From NCBI RefSeq assembly GCF_000220395.1, contig NW_004086356.1, positions 36,954 through 100,953 on the forward strand: a stretch of DNA of 64,000 nt, written 5' to 3'. The translations under genes were made by a program, and so were the position numbers. Within the stretch, counting starts at the first letter, position 1; every line of letters begins with the position of its first letter. Shown here one piece after another: positions 2,202 through 47,729 of this stretch. Source of the stretch: Ichthyophthirius multifiliis (Eukaryota > Ciliophora > Oligohymenophorea > Hymenostomatida). The notes under the pieces were generated by a model that worked only from the letters and a program-made list of their open reading frames with translations, did no database searches and had not been told where the DNA came from.

Positions 2202-3721
<1,520 letters not shown>

Positions 3722-4570: not shown

Positions 4571-6094
<1,524 letters not shown>

Positions 6095-8428: not shown

Positions 8429-10022
8429 ATGGGAAACTCATTATGTTAATGTTGTGAAATTAATTAGTAAACTAGAGATAAAAAAATAAAATAAAAGAAT
8501 CCTAATAAGATAAACGAAATAAAATATAATAACACATTAGAAACCGAAACGTAAGTAAACCAATATTTATATGATACATCAGGATATGAAAAAGAATATT
8601 AAATTGGCCAATATGTGTGCGGAGGAGAAGAAGTAGAAAAATATAATCCAAGTTATAATCACAGAAATAAATTTTGGTCCGAATCAATATAAAAAATAAA
8701 AAAAAAGAAAAAGAAAAAATCCTGTATTCACGAAGATACACAGAATTTATTATTTAATAAAAAATACGATCATCTATTAATTTATGAAGACAAAAGTAAA
8801 TTAGTAAAAAATATTAAAATAGGACCCCCTACAAAATATAGATGGTCAGCTTGGAAAGCGCATATTTTCGAATAATTATAAATCAAAGACCCGACATTAT
8901 TCCAGCGTTTACTAAAATATAAATCAAATCAAATGTGCTAAATAGAAAAAGATGTTACAAGAACTTTTCCTTTATAAATATATTTTTAAAACACAGAAAA
9001 AAACCAAACGAAGGATACAAATCTTTAGCAAAGTATGTTTTTTATTAAAAAAAAAATATTTATAATAAAATATGCATCGTTTCATAAAAAAAAGTATATT
9101 ATAATGTATAAGTATTACTTATCCATAAATTGGCTATTGTTAAGGTATGAACTTTATTTTAGGTTTTATGTTATTAATAAATGGAGGAAATTAATAAGAA
9201 TCTTTTTGGATGTTTAAGGCTTTAGCAGAAAATTAAAATTTTATGCTTTTGGGACTTTACGAGGAGAATTTTCATTTTTTGAAGTTTTTGGAATATTTAG
9301 CTATTTAGTTAACAAATAAACATTTAGGGAATTTAATTAATCATTTTAATGATATTCAAATACCTGAATATTTCTGGATAAATAAATGGTTCTTGACTTT
9401 ATTTTTGTACTCTTTTCCTGTCAGGGTATGCAGTCGAATGTGGGATTATATTGTTTCGAATTCCATTTTTTCTTGTATTTAATTAATGATATCATTTTTA
9501 AAAATTTTCGAAAAGAAATTACTTAAAATGGATGCTGGAGATTTAATGAATTTTTTCGCTAAAATGGGATAGGATGAATATATTTTATGTAAATAAGAAT
9601 CTGAATTTTATTTAGATTGCTCTAAATTGGCAAGACTAGCAGATTAATACTAAATAAATAATAAAACAATATAAAAATATGCTAAATAATATTTAGGAAA
9701 AAATAATGAGAATGAATATGCATTTTTATATAGTTTTTATAATAATTAAATATAATTTTCTTTAGAATATGAAAAAATTCTCTAAAAAAAAATTTTTATA
9801 CCTCAAATTATTATTAGTGAATAGTAAATAGAAGATGAAAAAAATGGTAATAATATTCAAGTTGATAATTAAGATTATCTTAATGATTTTTAAATTATTA
9901 ATATGGAGTCTAGTTCTATTTATAACTAATAAATTTAGAAAAAATAATGTTTGAAAAATTAGTAATAAGACTTTAGTTTATTGGAATAATAAAAAAATGA
10001 ATAAAGATTAAAAGATAATTGA
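8429..10022 (+). CDS. TBC-domain Rab GTPase-activating protein
   Basis: Start at 8429 gives MGNSLCQCCE, with Gly2 plus Cys6/Cys8/Cys9, a strong dual-lipidation signature. The TBC domain fills most of the protein. It has GPPTKYRWSAW, then IEKDVTRTFP with the catalytic arginine finger, then YPQIGYCQGMNFI with the catalytic glutamine finger, then WFLTLFLYSFP and RMWDYI. Known role: stimulates GTP hydrolysis on Rab proteins in membrane traffic. One 62-bp GT-AG intron (9033-9094). The A7 run at 8997-9003 must gain one A to give GYKSLANILQCISITYPQIG across the intron, a perfect family match. With that fix the protein is 510 aa. A Q/N-rich tail follows. A Rab gene in this window (53.4 kb) is a conceivable but unproven client. 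Confidence 0.88.
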
Positions 10023-20588: not shown

Positions 20589-23017
20589 TCATTAAACATT
20601 ACGAACTGCACTTTTTGTCATAAAATTTCGTTCAAGATTTTTAATATTTGACATATTTTTGTTAAAAATTTCCTTATTTTCAATTATTTAATTTCCAAGA
20701 TTATAAATTCTACTTTCTTTTTAGTTTTTTTTTTTTTTTTTATTAAATAAAAAAATTCATTTTTTAGTAATAATTTTTTTTTTATTTTTTTTTACATTAT
20801 TTTTCGAAAATTTCTTTAATAAAAACTTTCTTATTCATTTTTTAATCTTACTTGTAATTAAAGCCATTCCAAAAATTAAAATAAATCACAAAAATTTAAC
20901 AAATTTCTTAAAAAGAACACTTATTTATTCCCGAAACATTCTAAAAGCCATCCCAAATCTGCCCTAAACCTATTTAATCGCCTCTAAAATACTCTGAAAA
21001 AACTACACTTTCAATTTTTTCTAATATCTTTTTACCCTTCTCGTATTTTTTATGAATATGTTCTACAAACCCAACACATTCACTCAAACAAAACCAGAAA
21101 TTTTCCAAAAAAACTACCAAATTATCACCTATATCTTCAACAAAGTGTCCAAATCCCATCCTAAAACACACTAGAGTGCTATAGAAGACATTCACAAGCC
21201 TCAACTCGACAATTGTATGAAAATAATTGGTATTTTTATTTAAAAAAGAGTACCTTTAATGCACTTCTTATTATGAAATACTCATATTACTATCCCTATA
21301 TGGGGTATATCCACCTCTTAAGCTTTATTAGAGATTTTTTTCGTTTTCAAGTTAAAAAAGACGAACTTCGAAAGCATCTATAGGTAAAAAATGTTCAAAA
21401 ATATCCCCTTTGAAGGCCAAAAAAAGTGCATTTTTGGAAAAATTAATAAGATCTAAAAAAAAGAAGGAATTTTTTTATAAAATAAATGTCCTTGAAAAAA
21501 ATAAAAAATTTAAAGAATTTTAAGCGTTTCTTCAATTTCTTCTAAAAAAGCTAAATTTCCTCTTTTATTTTTTTCCAAAAAATGCTAAAAATTTGAAAAA
21601 GTGTTCATTATTTTTGGTTTAAAATTATTTAAAAAGGACATTAAAATACCTATTAAATTAATATTTTTTACTGAAAATAAAAAGCCTTCCTTTAAAGACC
21701 ATAATAGGTAAATCCAATATATTTATTTAATATTTCTTATATATTTTTCACCATTAAGTATATAATAATCTTCGTTTTCTATATGTTGGAATATTTATGA
21801 TCTTTAGAATATATCTAATAGGCCTTCCTGGAATAATTATATGGCATATTTTTTATTAGATAGGACTTCTTTTAGTAAAAAAAAGGATGAAATTAAAATT
21901 TATTAATTATCTTCGTTTTTTTTCTCATTAAAAAATAAAAAGTCGTAAATTTAGATAAATTTAGATATTTGTAATTCATAATTTTCTTAAAGAAGTTAAA
22001 AATTAGACTAAATTATTTAAAATAGAATTTCTCCATTTTTTAAATTCGGAAAAATTTCAAGAAACTCATTTATAAGTAAATTTTAAAAAAATTCTATTTT
22101 TTCTATATTTTTTATCATTTTAATTCCACTTTTTATTTATATTTCTAACAAAACTAAAATTATGTTAAATACAAGTTAAATTTCCTAGTCTTTTTTTAAA
22201 AAAATAAATGAAAATACTCTCAAAAAAAGAACTAAAAGATCTTCTAATTCTTTAAAAAAAGCTTCTTTATTATTTTAAGAAAAATCGAAAAAAAAATTTA
22301 TGTTTAAAATAAAACTTCCTTCATTATTATTTAAATTATTATTATTATTTTCCTTTTTTTTTTCTTCAATTTCTAGTAAATGCTTAATACCACATAAAAA
22401 ACAAAAAATAGCTTTTAATTTAAATTAAACAAAAAAATATACTTAATTTAATTTTATTTCATTTTCTATTTATTTCCCAAAAAAAGTACTCATTTGTAAA
22501 TAAAACTTCAAAAAATTCTCCATTTTTTTAAATATCTAAACTATTCCACAAGAAAATTTAATATCGAAATTCGGGTAGAATAAATCAAGAAATTTCCCTT
22601 TAAAAAGTTCCTATAAACCTTCCTATATCCAAAAAATATTAGAGTGTTAAATAATTGATCCCATAGGAATACCATCTAAACCAGAAGTAGAAATCAAACT
22701 ACATAATTTTATTATTTAAATAATCAAAGAGTTTTTTTATATTATCATAGAAAGTTTAAAATTATTCTATTTTAAATAAACAACTTAGTTTATAATAAAA
22801 GAACTACTTTTAGATAAATAACTATTCAAAAAATTTTATTTTTGTAAAAGAGTATATATTATTTCTTCAAAATCATAAATGAATAAAGAACCGAAATAAT
22901 ATTTTTATGAAAAAATGTTTATTCTTTTAGGCTTTTAATTAAAAAAAATTACTATTTTTTATTCATTATCAATTATTTAATTTTTAAATTTATATTCTTC
23001 TATTTTTGCTTGCTAAA

Positions 23018-23073
<56 letters not shown>

Positions 23074-23871
23074 ACTGAATTTTTTAATAATATTAAAACA
23101 AATTATAAGTCTAGAATTGTTTCAATACATTAAGTTATTATATTACACTTATTAATTATATATTCTTAAGATATTAACGATATAAATATATCTATAGTAT
23201 TCATATATATAAGTTATTCTTCAGCTTATCTTATTTGTAGGTTTTAGTAAAATAAATACATTTACTTCTATGTAAAATAAATATCTTCTTTAAATTAAAA
23301 TTCTTTTTATGTAAATATATATTTCTTGCTTATTATACTTTTTAAATCATTTAATTTAAAACTTAAAATTTTTAATATGTGTTAATTATTATCTCTAAAT
23401 TTTTTACAAAATTAAAAATATTTATTTTCATATTTGAAAATTTCATGTAGAAAAACAATTACCTTAAATTAATATTAAATAATTATACATATTTTATAAA
23501 TTTACTTTATTTATTATATAAATATTATTTTTATTAGCTAATTTCAATATTACAGTTTAAAAGTTAATATTAATATTTAAATTGTCTATAAAAGTATTAA
23601 ACTCAAGAAACTTTATCATAAAATGTTCTTATTCTTATAAAGCTATTGTAAGAAAATCTAAAACAGTACAATTATAAATATCTCTATTTTTTTCATCTAT
23701 TAATATTCGTAATATTAAATTATAAAAATGTTCTAATTAATAGTTTTTATTTTCATCCCCAGGATTATTTTAGAAATTCTAAACTTATAAATTGCCTAAA
23801 TAATTAATGAGTTTAGGTTTATTATTTATTTTTTTAATCTAATTATTTATATATAAAATAATTTATATAAC

Positions 23872-23911
<40 letters not shown>

Positions 23912-24644
23912 GTTTATTACTTCCCAAATCTGCATTAATTAAGTGAAAATTCTAAATGTTTAAACTGTTAAAGAATTAATAAATTCATTTTAAATATTTT
24001 GATTCTTATATTTAAATAAATAAAAATATTAAAATTAAATTAATATATTATAAACTAAATTTATAATAAAAAATTTACTAAATAAAAAGCATTTTTAATA
24101 ATATTAAAATCAAAAAAAGGTTAATTGTCTTAAATTATAAAGTTTTCGAATTAGTTAGATTTAATAATACCCCAACTTCCAGAATCCAGGCTCTCGTTAT
24201 TTAAAACTAAGTATTTTTCTTCTTCAAAATAATTAATAAAAGAAAACATATTAATTAAAATATTCACTTTTACAACTTTTTTACTTTAATCAATAAAAAT
24301 ATCATGTTCAAAATTATAAATAGATTATTATTTGCATAAAAAATCTTCAAAATTATTTAAAAAATTTAATTAATTTAATATATCTAATTAATATTTTTCA
24401 TTTTAATTTTTAACATTCTCTTATAAAAGTATATATATCTCTTCTTTCTATAATATTAAATTACATATATTTTCTAAAAGCTTCAAAGAATTAATTAACA
24501 AAGAAAGAATAGTATAACAATTCTTTGATTTTTCTGAGAAGTCATTTAATTTTTTATTACTTTTAGGTATAAAAATTTAATTTTTCAACAATAAATTTTA
24601 TAATTCGCAGTATTATTTATATTTAATTTCTTATATTATATTAA

Positions 24645-24690
<46 letters not shown>

Positions 24691-27010
24691 ATAAATATAT
24701 TATTTTATTTTACATTAATTTATTTTCGGTTTATTTTAAATTACAAAAAATATTTGATTTTCAATATCTAAAAAATTAAAAACCTTTTAATAAAAATCAA
24801 AAACTTAAAACTTTTCAAAACTATTAATATAAATTTCATTTTTTTATAAATTAGTATTCATAAAAAATTTCTATATACTAAAATTCATTATTTTCATTTA
24901 AATTTCTCCTATTTTCCATTTATATTTTTTATTATTCATATCTTTCCATTAAATCTAACTATTAATGAAAAAAAAGAATAATTAATTAACTAAATTTCCC
25001 CTTAATTCCCAAACATTTTATTCATCAAATTTTTTTCTTTAAATAAAAAAGTCTTTTATGGTTATTCGAAATTAATCAAAATAGAATACAGTAAAGAAAG
25101 CAATTAAAATAAACATTTTTCCAATTACTTTTGCAATAAAGGGGAGTTAAATTAATAGTATTATCCAAAATATGTAAAGAAATTAGCATTAAAGAATTTA
25201 AAAAGGACATGAATTCCATTATTAGGTTCATCTGTAATAAATTTGTTATAATAATAAAATTCTCTAATTGTATTTTAAGTTTTCTAAGGACTATAATTTT
25301 ATAAAATATGCAAAGATTTAAGTACTTTAGTATAATTCTTTAAATGAAATTTATTTTAATTATGAATATCCTAAAAAAAAGTGCTATATATTAAAATATA
25401 AGTTACAGGACAATAAAGTTGGCTTTTTTTATTTAATTATAACATTTCTATTTCAAATTAGTCCTATAATTTTTATGTGATTAATTCTATTTAGAATACA
25501 TCTTTTTAAATAATTTTATGAATAATTTTCATTCTTTTAAAAAAGTTGTCATTAAAAACTTAACTATAATTAAAAAAATATAATAAAAAATATAAATATA
25601 TATTAATTAAATATATATTTATATATTTATATATTTATATATTTATATATTTATATATTTATATATTTATATATTTATATATTACATATCTTAATAAGCG
25701 TTTTTATTATTTATATTTACATTATTATTATTATGTTAAGATTCTATATAAGTTTCTTGAAATAAAATATCAAAGATTCGTGTTTTTTATAGTATATGAT
25801 CTATTATATTGTCATTTAAATATTTTTCTTTATTTTAAAAATCTATTTCTTTTCTTACTATAATACTCTAAATAATTAAAAGCTAACTACATTCCTTTTA
25901 TAGTAAAAAATCAAATTTTTATAAACTATCTTATATAAATTTTTATAAATTAGCATTTCCTTTAACACATTTCTAAACCAATGTCGCAATTTTAAAAGGG
26001 ATTTCTTAATTTTTTCCTTTAGAAATTTCCTCAAAATGTTTAATAAAATCTAAGAATCTAACTAGATGTTACAAAAGAACATCTTGTAAGAAAAAAAAGC
26101 TTATATCATCATTAAAACCTTTCCTTTTATACAAATTATAAATACAATTATCTAAAAAAGACATAACAATATCATATTTGCTATTAAAATCTTCCTAATG
26201 ATGATTTTTATTAGAAATTATATAAAAGAAATTTTATAATATAACAAAAACGAAATTATTATTAATTTAATTATTTCCTAATTAAAAAAATATATTCTCA
26301 TCAATAATATCTAATTTTTAAATTAAAATTAAAATAGAATACTCTTCTTACATTTGTTTTATTTCATTTAATTCTGGTCTTTTCTCATCTTCATTTAAAT
26401 ATTTAAAACTAACATTTTTTTCCTTTTTCCATATTAAATCCATTAATAATTTATATTTTTCTTAATAATTATTTGAATCTAATTTATTATCTAAATCTAA
26501 TATTTTATCATATTTTTAAATTATTCCCAATATAATTTCTAAAATACTCTTTTTCTCATTTTCCCTTTATACATAAAAAATCTCCTCATCAAATTATTTA
26601 AGATATAAATCTTTCTTTTTTTCAAGTTAAGCCCATAAAGATTTTAAAATATTACATTTATTCAATAATTTTTTTATTATATTCTCATATAAAGGACCAA
26701 GTCCTATAACAAAAATATGCCTTAAACATTCCAAAATAGCATTTCTTTATTAAAAATAAATCATTTCCATGAAATCTTTATTTATTTAAATTAAAAATTC
26801 GCATTCGGAATTCGGAAAAAATTCCTATGTTTGATTATTTTTAATAATAATTTAAAATCGTTCTAATTTTTATAAAGAAGGCTTTTATTAATTTTCATCT
26901 TCGAAAAATAAATTTACAATCTTATTATTTTCAATAAGAAATAAATCAAACATATAATAACACTATTCAAAATCAATTTTTAGATAATCTGCAAGTTAAT
27001 AAATTAACAT
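20589..27010 (-). CDS. Large unidentified helical protein, many exons
   Basis: The minus strand reads as helix-rich coding blocks throughout. The start at 27010 gives MLIYQLADYLKIDFEQCYYM; the end at 20589 gives SAVRNVQ plus TGA. Clear blocks include KIATLVQKCVKGNANLQKF (about 25.97 kb), IHVLFKFFNANFFTYFGQYY (about 25.15 kb), ISTSGLDGIPMGSIIQHSNI (about 22.66 kb), DIFEHFLPIDAFEVRLF (about 21.4 kb) and IWDGFQNVSGINKCSFQEI (about 20.93 kb). Introns with TA repeats separate them (for example near 25.6, 24.65 and 23.9 kb), and the 21.4-21.55 kb part has at least one homopolymer frameshift. The pattern resembles an alpha-solenoid of about 1800-1900 aa, but I recognise no family. It could be two genes. 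The exon structure is not fully resolved. Confidence 0.45.
23019..23072 (-). repeat. (TAA)n microsatellite, probably encoding polyglutamine
   Basis: On the minus strand about 17 TAA units run directly, in the same frame, into FQQAKIEEYK of the large gene. In this code TAA is Gln, so the repeat may be translated as polyGln. An intronic position ending at TTTTAG is the alternative. Confidence 0.55.
25618..25682. repeat. 8-bp tandem repeat (TTTATATA)n
   Basis: About eight perfect copies of an 8-bp unit, most likely inside an intron of the large minus-strand gene. Confidence 0.85.
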
Positions 27011-27074
27011 AAATATTACATATTAATATGTATAATTATTTAGGCTTTATATTTCAAACTATAATGGTTATTTT

Positions 27075-30000
27075 TCATTATTTATACTCTGATTTTATTT
27101 ATTTAGTGTTTGGTTTTTTTGTTTATTTAGATTTTATTAGTTTATAAATTTTTATTATATAAGCTATTTATTTATTTTTAAAAAACTTAATATTTTTATT
27201 TTTATATAAAGTTACTTATTAAAATTAATTTTAAGGGTTATAATCATAATAATTAATGCCTTTTATAAATTTATCTTCTATATCTTTATTAGAAAAAAAA
27301 CTATTTACATCTGCTTCACTATATTAATCTATTTCTTATATAAATTTTAATAGTTATATATTATTCTTTATAGATTTAGTTATTAAATAGTCAATGAATG
27401 TTGGTTATTTTATTTCATCTTTTTATTAATTTATTGATTATTGCTAAGCTTAAAATGTTTTATTATTATTATTATTCTATATTTTATTAGTATCTATTTA
27501 TTATTATTAATTATTATTTTATTATTGAAAATTATTTTATTCTTATTTATTTTACTATTAGTTATTTTATAATACTACATTTTGTTATTAATTAACTTAA
27601 AACATATTTTTTAATTAATTATTTTAAGTTTATTAATTGTTTTAAGTTTATTAATTATTTTGAATTTAATTGTTTTAATTTTATTAATTATTTTTATTAT
27701 TATCTTCAACTTTTTTTACTACAGGATCTTAATTCAATTAATTCGAAACATTTATATTTTTTTATTAAGATTAAAATAGATTAAAACTTTTTTACTATTA
27801 ATTATTATTTGGATCTTAATCATTATTTACTTATTATTAATTATTAAACATACCTTGCTTTTAGTTTTTATTTGAGAAAATATTATTCTTATTATCATTA
27901 TTTTAATTCTAAAAATTATTGGCTTTTTATTATTGTTAATTTTGCGATATCTAATTATTTTATTAATTATTAATATTTTATTATAATTATAATTAGGGTT
28001 GCTAAGGATTTTATTTTTATTAATTGATTATATTTGTAAAAATATTATCCGTTTGTTAGTTATTATTTTGTTATTAATTATTTTATTACATAAAACTAAA
28101 AGCCTTATTTAAATTATTTTATTAAGTTATTTGATTATTAAATAAATTATTTTGTTATTATGGATTTTCATTTGGATTTTGATTTTGATTAGGATTTTGA
28201 TTTGGATTTTGATTTTGATTTTGTATGTTAAATATTTCTTTTTATTGATCTTATTATATCTACACATTATTTGTAACATTTTATTAAAATATATTTTATT
28301 TTTATTACCCTTATTATTATTAATCTTACTAATTAATTTACTTGTTATTTGGATTTATGTTTTTAAAAATATCTCCTTTATTTTATTATTCTTATTATGG
28401 ATTGACAAAATTATTATTATTTTGATTTATATTTTTAAAAATATCAACTTTGTTTTAAATTTAAGCATTCTCTGAAGTTAATTAATTTTATTATTAATTA
28501 TTCGTAAGGAAATTTTTACCTATTAAATTATTTTACTTTTATTAATTATTCATAAAAATATCATATTATTATTATTACATTTGTTAAAGTTAATTGTTTA
28601 CATTCTGATTATTTAAATTTAAAATATTTCCTTAGTTTTGTTAATTTAATTAGTTATTTTGTTAAAAAGAAGTAGTTGTATTTTATTATTAAGTATTATT
28701 ATTCTAAAAATTAGTATTCTTAAGATTGTTTTGATTTTATTGTTAATCATTTTATGTTTAAATTAAATTTTACTATTAATTATCTTATTTTTAAAAAAGA
28801 TTTTAATTATTTTATTATTATTATTATTAATTCATTTTTTAAATAGTATTATTATTATTAAACAAATTAATTTGAGGTTCATTCTATTTCTGAAATGTAT
28901 TTTATTAATTTTCATTTTATTTTTAAAGATTTGTATTATTAAATAGATTTTATTTAGATTCATTATAATTCTAAAATGTATCTTTTGTATTTAACTAGCT
29001 TATATTTTATTTTTAAATATTATTATTAAATAAATTCTATTATTATTATTATTCATTTGATTTTTATTACATGTTTGTATTTAATGTGTTTTATAATTAT
29101 TCTTTTTAGCCTTAAATAAAGCTAAAACTTTAAGGATTTTATAAACTTTTATTATCATTATTATTTTATTATTTAAAATTCTAATCTTAATTTTATTATT
29201 ATTAAGATTAATTACTTTAATTACAAGAATTTTGCTAATTTTAAAATAAATTATTTTTTTATTATCCAATATTATTATTCTCTTATTAATTTTATTTATT
29301 AACATCAATTTAATTATCTAATTTTTATTAAGATTAATTTTAAAATATGTTCCCTTAATTATTATTTAAATTTGCCTAATTATGGTTCTAATTTCCTTAA
29401 TTATTTTTTTACTCTTTTATTAAATTATTAGATAAATCTTAATTATTACTACTAAAAATATTATTTTATTATAATTAGTTCTAGCTATTAGATTAATAAA
29501 TATTATTATTTGATTAAGATACTTCATTTTTCTTATCATTTTATTATTAAAAAACATTTTAAGCAACTTAAAAATTATTTTATTATTAATTTAGATTAGG
29601 CGTATTATTTTATACAATATTACTTGTTAATGCAGATTCTCCACTATTTTTATCATTTTATTTAGAAAAAATATTATAACTAGATATTTATTAGCTGTTT
29701 TGTTATTATTAATTCAAATTAGTATTACTATTTAAAAAAATATTGCTAGATTATTAACAATCTCCGGTTCTTTTATCGTTTTATTTAGTAAAAATATTTT
29801 AAATAGATTATTAACTATTTTATTATTATTAATTCAAGTTAACAGTGTTATTTAAAAAAATATTTTGCGGTTAAATATTTGTTTTTAAAATATTTTTGTT
29901 ATTTATTTCTTTTTTTTCATCATATGATTTTTATTATTCTTAGTGTTATTATTATTGCATTTATAATTATGATTAATCTTATTATTATTATTATTAAAAT

Positions 30001-30098
30001 ATATTTTTTTCTTAAGGTTTTATCTAATTTTAAGTAAATAAGTTTTACGTCTAATTTACTTATTAACCTTAATTTTAATTTTCTTATTGATTATTCAT
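27075..30098 (-). CDS. NIF/NLF-repeat nucleoporin-like protein
   Basis: One long frame of about 1007 codons from ATG at 30098 to TGA at 27075, open only with TAA/TAG as Gln. About 20 phenylalanine motifs of the form [N/D/E/G]-[I/L/M]-F are spread through Q/N-rich sequence: NLFTQNQ, NIFQQ, NIFLNN, NIFTKQND, NIFSKQND, NLFQNQ, NLFNNN, DIFMNN, DIFKNIN (twice), NIFQQN, EIFNIQ, NIFSNK, GMFNNQ. Near the N-terminus a longer unit repeats (NIFLN...LNQQQQNSQQ...NIF...QNDK). This matches the FG-type disordered part of nucleoporins. In Tetrahymena, micronucleus-specific Nup98 paralogues carry NIFN in place of GLFG repeats. The only folded-looking part is C-terminal (FIDYLITKSI, EADVNSFFSNKDIEDK); no Nup98 autoprotease domain is evident. 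An intron near the 3' end is possible, so the stop is less certain than the start. Confidence 0.68.
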
Positions 30099-46379: not shown

Positions 46380-46464
46380 TCATTATAATTATTACTATTA
46401 TTACTATTATTACTATTATTACTATTATTACTATTATTACTATTATTACTATTATTACTATTAC

Positions 46465-46521
<57 letters not shown>

Positions 46522-47729
46522 TATATTTATAATTATTACTCTTATTGTAATTAGGTTAATTAATTTATTATTTATGCTTATTAATATGATTATTATTAAC
46601 TTTATTATTATTCTTTTTATTATATTTATTGGAATTATTATTATTATATAATAATTTATTCAATATATATTTAGTTTATATTTTACATAATTAAATTATT
46701 ATAATATGGGTAATCAGTTTCTTTATTTGTTCTTTTTAGAATTCTTAGATAATCACAATCAAACTTTGTGAGCATCTAAAATATTTCAAGTCTTAATATT
46801 GCTTTTTCATATTCTTCATTTTAATTTTAATTATTTTACTAATAAGATATTACATCTTTACAAAAAAATAAAAAAATATTTTTATTTTTTTTAAATTTTA
46901 CTTTAAATTTCCTTTATTGCCTATTAAAATTTTTAATTATTTTAAACTTTTTCACTTATTTATTAAATTTTCTAACTTTTATATTATATATTTATATTTT
47001 TTTATGAAAAAATATTTACTTTTATTCAATTGATAAATTATAATTTTCTTATAATTCTTAATCAATATTTTTTTTATCTTAATTTAATTTTTTATTTCTT
47101 TTTTCTTATTCATTATTGTATAGTACTTATAGAGCCTTTATTTATTTTTACATTTCTTAAATTTTCTATTACTATTCTTTGAATTCTTTTTATTCTTTAT
47201 CATTATAATTATTATTATTGTAAAACTCTTCCAATTATTTTTTTATTTTTATATTTTCTTAAAGGACATCTTAATTAATTTCAAACTACTAACTTTAGTT
47301 AATTTACCTTAAGTTTTCCAATTCCATATATTATTTCTCAATAATTTAATTTAAATGTTCAATTTATTTTCCAGCATTTCTTAATTTTTTATCCATATCA
47401 TTATTATTTAACCTAGATTTATTCGTTTCTAAATTATAATTGCTAAAAGTATTTCTATTATTCATATATGTTTAAGCGTTTCTTTTTTTTATAATTTTAG
47501 CATCAGAACTATATATTTCATAACTTTAATTATGTGGTTTTTCGATTTTATTATTAGTATTAAACCTCGTTTTCTGATTATTATCTAAACTAAAACTACT
47601 ATTATGACTATGATTGGCTGTTTAAATAAAAATATAGCCATTTTCATTAAATCTTTTATGTTAATATATTTATTCATTATTTTCAATAAAATCTTAATTC
47701 AAAATTTTATTTTAATCTTTATCAATCAT
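46380..47729 (-). CDS. Coiled-coil protein with C-terminal polyglutamine tract
   Basis: ATG at 47729 (MIDKDQNKILNQDFIEN) to TGA at 46380, with three or more short introns (for example near 47300, 47020 and 46900). The middle is a long coiled coil: AGKQIEHLNQIIEKQYMELE, then KKQLEEFYNNNN, KEFKEQQQKIQEMQKQTKAL and QISEKVQNNQKFQQAIKEIQ. A short acidic/basic region follows (AILRLEIFQMLTKFDCDYL), then a Q-rich tail that ends in about 45 consecutive Gln codons written as TAA and TAG (46389-46523), then L-Q-stop. No domain gives a function. Coiled-coil proteins of this kind are often cytoskeletal or basal-body proteins in ciliates, but nothing here proves it. Confidence 0.68.
46389..46523 (-). repeat. 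(TAA/TAG)n microsatellite encoding about 45 glutamines
   Basis: On the plus strand it looks like (TTA)n mixed with (TTACTA)n. On the coding strand every codon is TAA or TAG, that is Gln in this code, in frame with the coiled-coil protein and ending just before its TGA. The regular TAG every second or third codon may limit slippage. Confidence 0.8.

Follow-up and report, generated by a model that had tools for sequence, protein, structure and literature searches.

A repeat-coding frame and its gene model

The stretch of DNA analysed here (the window) comprises 64,000 nucleotides from the ciliate Ichthyophthirius multifiliis (contig NW_004086356.1, positions 36,954 to 100,953, labelled C493 in this study), with a GC content of about 10-23% in 2-kb steps. 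On its reverse strand, from 30098 to 27075, lies a single frame of 1007 amino acids (aa) that is open under translation table 6, the ciliate code chosen by us, in which TAA and TAG specify glutamine. The gene to which this frame belongs, referred to as the NIF gene, is considered to encode a nucleoporin of the Nup308 type; the estimated probability that it is a NIF-armed scaffold nucleoporin of the Nup205/Nup188 superfamily is roughly 0.8.

A preliminary description, made from the sequence alone, reported about 20 NIF/NLF/DIF motifs in a Q/N-rich frame of about 1000 codons, and both features were recovered: the frame consists of 28% glutamine and 25% asparagine, and contains 10 NIF, 8 NLF and 3 DIF motifs (21 in total), 25 [ILVM]F dipeptides and no FG. 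The same description held the gene to be written largely in TAA codons; TAA and TAG codons are indeed numerous, but they account for a quarter of the frame (250 of 1007 codons, 228 TAA and 22 TAG) and not for most of it. In the 893-aa repeat domain, the flanked motif [NDSQ][ILVM]F[NQSTKD] occurs 20 times, more often than in any of 1000 shuffles (mean 2.72, maximum 8), and [ILVM]F occurs 25 times, compared with a mean of 5.51 and a maximum of 13 in as many shuffles. Among the six frames of 27216-30098, only the coding frame is free of stops, and it contains 20 flanked motifs compared with 0-6 in the other five, while plain [ILVM]F does not single out the coding frame (25 compared with 1-78, being as common or commoner in four of the others). 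A Q-rich, TAA-coded control open reading frame (ORF) of the window, 46380-47729 (-), had five [ILVM]F (shuffled mean 4.0) and no flanked motif, and chance motifs were rejected as an explanation on the basis of the shuffles and this control ORF. The control ORF also has a long poly-Q run at its end and 110 TAA/TAG codons. The NIF/NLF-type sites in the repeat arm are spaced 10-80 residues apart, TAA/AAT triplet runs are present in the region, and in 29451-29864 tandemly arranged units, each about 120 bp long, indicate that the repeats were spread partly by local duplication.

Coding exon 1 very probably ends at 27216, where a phase-0 intron (donor GTAACT at 27215, acceptor CATTATAG before 27058) joins it to an open, helical-looking frame. 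The C-terminal 80 residues that the preliminary description had proposed for database searches are therefore partly intron, since the last 46 residues of the ORF (27215-27075) are read-through. In the predicted gene model, exon 1 is spliced to sequence for a long, probably helical protein that runs to about 20.9 kb and has roughly 2,800 aa in total; the model contains 2643 codons as far as position 21478, followed by a C-terminal part in a different frame. Exons were picked by hand with an automatic gene model as a guide, and the automatic models themselves failed to give a usable structure, as one kept a single exon, one started one base off and one over-spliced. The uncertain boundaries are those around 25000, those of the small exon 23921-23951 and the one at 21478, where no GT-AG intron was found at the frame change, which may reflect a sequence error or an unrecognised intron. 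A large helix-rich C-terminal region of about 2000 aa, as in Nup308, fits by length and homology, its splicing into one protein being predicted and its helix prediction being of low confidence.

The GLFG-repeat twin and the probable identity of the scaffold

When exon 2 (window positions 25529-27058) was searched against the I. multifiliis genome (45 Mb, 937 contigs), it matched itself and three other places, the best of which was C887:88165-88560 (+), with an E value of 9.3e-9; the other two matches were weak (C859, E 0.001, and C469, E 0.04). The C887 match lies in a gene colinear with the NIF gene, and the N-terminal 626 aa of its product contain 24 [ILVM]F, 11 FG and 6 GLFG. The alignment of the two solenoids runs over their whole length and has 1,789 columns, of which 481 (26.9%) are identical, and the global alignment score of 918 compares with 236 +/- 24 (maximum 298, z = 28) in 60 shuffles within 20-residue windows; for two pieces, blastp gave E values of 8.5e-16 and 2.1e-11. 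The end of exon 1 aligned to the GLFG paralog with a score of 53, compared with a null of 19.6 (standard deviation 6.6, maximum 63) in which one of 2000 shuffles scored as high. In each gene a phase-0 intron lies in a variable linker, at nearly corresponding positions 14 alignment columns apart. Given the homology of the exon 1 end and this near-match in intron position, the NIF arm very probably forms a single gene with the solenoid, and a separate short Q/N protein was rejected on the paralog and intron evidence. By its sequence, the NIF gene is the NIF-repeat member of a pair whose GLFG member is located on C887. Genome searches with the three other solenoid pieces, taken from the twin or from exon 8, returned only the queries themselves, not even the twin; their sensitivity is therefore too low for a third paralog to be excluded, and the link between the two genes rests on the exon 2 search and the direct alignments. 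Just upstream of the GLFG gene (about C887:84200-85400, +), a frame with GPPGTGKT looks, by eye, like that of an AAA ATPase.

The kind of scaffold that the pair encodes was examined by hhalign profile comparison. The N-terminal solenoid pair scored 33.4 over 79 columns against three Nup188 chains (shuffle maximum 19.2 in 60 shuffles and 17.7 in 40), and 28.2 over 17 columns against four Nup205/Nup192 chains (shuffle maximum 19.4 in 40). When ten windows along the solenoids were compared, only the first two stood out (30.7 and 19.3), with all others at or below 13.5. The NIF sequence alone scored 21.5 with Nup188, 24.0 with yeast Nup188 added and 24.8 with Nup205 plus Nup192, and the corresponding scores of the GLFG sequence alone were 21.5, 15.9 and 19.2. 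These comparisons suggest that the NIF and GLFG scaffolds are likely members of the Nup205/Nup188 superfamily, while the profile scores clearly favour neither Nup205 nor Nup188 ancestry.

Several results weigh against this assignment. The hhalign signal is weak, as either ciliate sequence alone scored no higher than 24.8, and the scores of the pair with vertebrate Nup205 alone (14.5) and with fungal Nup192 alone (22.7, null maximum 23.2) were not clear of the null. Pfam hmmscan of the exons found no nucleoporin family and nothing else of relevance. Whole-genome searches with Nup188_N (PF10487) and Nup192 (PF11894) each gave no match at E <= 1, but 14 controls were also silent, so that this is no proof of absence. 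Two large-database protein searches found no relatives (0 of 6617 and 0 of 5372 candidates at E <= 0.01), and searches of PDB sequences with the NIF and GLFG proteins matched no nucleoporin. AlphaFold models from two-sequence alignments were poor (predicted local distance difference test, pLDDT, 45 and 36), and Foldseek with the first of them gave 0 of 82 matches at E <= 0.001. The NIF gene also changes frame without a clear intron in at least two places, near 25000 and at 21478, close to A or T runs, possibly as a result of sequence errors. Sequence homology was demonstrated between the NIF gene and its GLFG twin alone, and the two database protein searches, which might have linked it to Tetrahymena Nup308, returned nothing. 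The Nic96 (Nup93) family had no match in the genome, where its controls were silent as well.

The preliminary description had seen no Nup98 autoprotease domain, and had offered two identities for the gene, the counterpart of the micronuclear Nup98 or some other nucleoporin in which NIF repeats evolved independently. A search for the domain (PF04096) found it at four places in the genome, none of them on C493, in agreement with the first observation. A NIF-type Nup98 of this genome is another gene, the candidate on C642, and identification of the NIF gene as Nup98 was rejected, as no autoprotease domain was found on its contig and the Nup98 domains lie on others. The second identity gained support, as the gene runs through introns into a solenoid homologous to that of a GLFG-repeat protein of Nup308 architecture. 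The presence of both NIF-type and GLFG-type Nup98s in the same genome supports a NIF/GLFG pairing of nucleoporins. The Nup98 domain of C642 is 28% identical to that of C194 and 23% identical to that of C534, compared with 27% for the solenoids, a similar divergence that fits, but does not prove, two duplications of similar age.

Table 1. Features of the NIF gene (window coordinates), its GLFG-repeat paralog and the Nup98 loci (contig labels)
Feature	Position	Strand	Remarks
Q/N-rich NIF/NLF-repeat domain	27420..30098	-	893 aa, 25 [ILVM]F, 0 FG, G 1.3%
Tandem copies	29451..29864	-	29451-29662 and 29580-29864; periods 117 and 123 bp, about 40 aa, at most 2 F motifs each
Exon 1: NIF-repeat domain and first scaffold helices	27216..30098	-	961 codons; donor GTAACT at 27215
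End of exon 1 (DEIKQPTFIDYL...)	27216..27419	-	aligns with same segment of GLFG paralog
Intron 1, phase 0	27059..27215	-	ORF of the preliminary description extends into it to 27075
Exon 2: putative alpha-solenoid start, Nup188/Nup205-like N-terminal motif	25686..27058	-	
Exon 3	24991..25563	-	3' boundary uncertain; possible 36-nt intron 25371-25406
Exon 4	24714..24958	-	KYKWKIG, common to paralog
Exon 5	24079..24629	-	5' boundary tentative
Exon 6	23921..23951	-	small, tentative
Exon 7	23506..23795	-	
Exon 8: long open solenoid exon	21478..23462	-	about 660 codons
C-terminal coding stretch, other frame	20850..21477	-	3' end provisional
GLFG-repeat paralog	C887:85897-94500	+	colinear gene, start MSQSQGLFSN..., then same solenoid
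NIF-type Nup98 candidate	C642		ORF about 0.8 kb upstream of domain, same strand, joined by position only; 17 flanked motifs, 7 NIFN
GLFG-type Nup98	C194		ORF contains domain, 15 GLFG
GLFG/GIFG-type Nup98	C534		ORF reaches domain, 7 matches
Q-rich ORF beside Nup98 domain	C756		without clear repeats

Elsewhere in the window, the neighbouring ORFs 2205-3302 (-) and 4574-6094 (-) contain a protein kinase domain and EF hands (calcium-dependent kinase type), and the ORF 8571-10019 (+) contains a Rab-GTPase-TBC domain.

Alternative explanations and a possible role in the two nuclei

Another explanation for the pair is an ancient split, in which the NIF gene is the missing ciliate Nup188 and the GLFG gene is Nup205 (Nup308), both with phenylalanine repeats, so that the repeats reflect ring position and not nucleus. 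Nup188 was not found in Tetrahymena according to the cited part of PMC5450191, and the pair profile has a slightly higher score and a longer match with Nup188 (33.4 over 79 columns) than with Nup205 plus Nup192 (28.2 over 17). The individual sequences do not follow this division, however, as the NIF sequence alone shows no preference for Nup188 (21.5, or 24.0 with yeast Nup188, compared with 24.8) and the GLFG sequence alone shows none for Nup205 (19.2, compared with 21.5 for Nup188, or 15.9 with yeast Nup188). A duplication that followed the gain of the arm is favoured by the arm and intron position that both genes share, and we regard the ancient split as unlikely, though the most serious of the alternatives.

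The remaining explanations appear far less probable. A division into two neighbouring genes, one for the NIF ORF and one for the solenoid, might be argued from an ATG in the solenoid frame shortly downstream and from the fact that continuity was deduced from homology; the homology of the exon 1 end to the same part of the GLFG gene, which has the same order and a phase-0 intron in nearly the same position, makes such an arrangement very improbable. Glutamine and asparagine together form more than half of the frame, and triplet runs of TAA/AAT occur in the region, as would be expected of a low-complexity protein unrelated to pores that contains NIF words by chance, but the motif count above all 1000 shuffles, the lack of flanked motifs in the Q-rich control ORF and the GLFG repeats at the same place in the paralog leave very little room for this explanation. 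It is just as doubtful that the NIF gene is a decaying pseudogene copy of Nup308, as might be suggested by the shifts of frame near 25000 and 21478, where no clear intron is seen, because its long open exons are colinear over the whole length; moreover, the GLFG gene has frame changes of its own that could not be assigned to introns (near 93480 and 93850), which points to sequence errors or unrecognised introns in both genes.

As a NIF-armed scaffold of the Nup205/Nup188 superfamily, the protein would consist of an N-terminal phenylalanine-repeat arm, presumably disordered, fused to an alpha-solenoid. Judging from its homologs, the solenoid would be built into the inner ring of the pore, and the arm of about 890 aa would hang in the channel, offering about 25 NIF/NLF-type sites to transport receptors. 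Asn or Gln in place of Gly around Phe would change which cargo passes, perhaps by an effect on cohesion or receptor binding. In Tetrahymena, the NIFN/GLFG difference of Nup98 was reported to matter for nucleus-specific import of linker histones, and macronuclear linker histones are reportedly kept from being transported to the wrong nucleus by the NIFN repeats of MicNup98A (PMC5450191). Micronucleus-specific Nup98s bearing NIFN repeats have also been tracked during nuclear differentiation (PMC4432229). MicNup214 has NIFN repeats as well, in which the last N is usually Q, and the nucleus-specific nucleoporins named in the cited part of PMC5450191 are FG-Nups (Nup214, Nup153, Nup98 and Pom proteins), and Nup93, Nup155 and Nup308 of the inner ring were reported in both nuclei.

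NIF/GLFG pairs are known for Nup98 and Nup214, and an inner-ring scaffold nucleoporin thus seems to form one as well. In a division between the two nuclei, the NIF form would most probably equip the micronuclear pores, adding further NIF sites beside Nup98 and MicNup214, and its GLFG twin the macronuclear pores. Micronuclear use of the NIF-armed scaffold, which is suggested by analogy from the repeat type, has about even odds, and we are equally divided on whether the NIF/GLFG distinction extends to the inner-ring scaffold, a NIF-armed Nup308 being used in micronuclear pores and its GLFG-armed counterpart in macronuclear ones. Several reports in the cited parts of PMC5450191 speak against such a division. 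The GLFG-type Tetrahymena Nup308 is equally present in both nuclei, so that repeat type need not name the nucleus. The micronuclear and macronuclear forms of Nup153 do not differ markedly, and no importin preferring NIFN was known to the authors.

If the division exists, parallel exchanges of repeat type have taken place on two or more unrelated carriers (Nup98 and a Nup205/188-type scaffold), and Tetrahymena may have lost its NIF-type Nup308 or may have one that was overlooked. Among the matches listed in the open-access literature on ciliate nucleoporins, in the portions of text that were available, no NIF-type Nup308, Nup205 or Nup188 was found (subscription papers, such as Iwamoto et al. 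2009, lie outside this scope). A NIF/GLFG pair of proteins in which scaffold and arm are combined would imply that the ring itself can carry pore identity, and would offer a matched pair for comparison of NIF and GLFG repeat function with the carrier roughly constant.

Comparison with known nucleoporins

The large Nup205/Nup192 and Nup188 proteins of animals, fungi and plants are alpha-solenoids and have in common with the NIF gene product an N-terminal motif around [YF]F..R...L...L..I, a similarity at the profile level only. Nup205 and Nup188 differ from it in having no FG repeats, as stated in the cited part of PMC5450191. NIF-type repeats are common to the NIF gene and Tetrahymena MicNup98A/B, whereas the carrier in the NIF gene is a solenoid in which no autoprotease domain was found. 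In MicNup214, NIF is followed by Q after the F, like the NIFQ of the NIF gene; in contrast to MicNup214, the NIF gene has its repeat arm at the N-terminus, and the remainder looks helical.

The closest known system is Tetrahymena thermophila Nup308 (TTHERM_00091620), a Nup205-type protein of the Nup93 complex. According to the cited part of PMC5450191, it has 2675 aa, with GLFG repeats in residues 1-570 and a helix-rich remainder, copurifies with Nup93 and groups with Nup205 at 72% bootstrap. The NIF gene product resembles it in the N-terminal phenylalanine-repeat arm, the predicted helical scaffold of about 2000 aa and the total length, and its 25 [ILVM]F in 893 aa correspond to the phenylalanine-repeat N-terminus of the Nup308 type. 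Whereas Tetrahymena Nup308 has GLFG repeats and is found in both nuclei, the 893-aa domain of the NIF gene has NIF/NLF repeats and neither GLFG nor FG (0 each), and the gene is therefore termed a NIF-type paralog and not Nup308 itself. The GLFG gene on C887 is the closer match to Tetrahymena Nup308, which it fits in both architecture and length.
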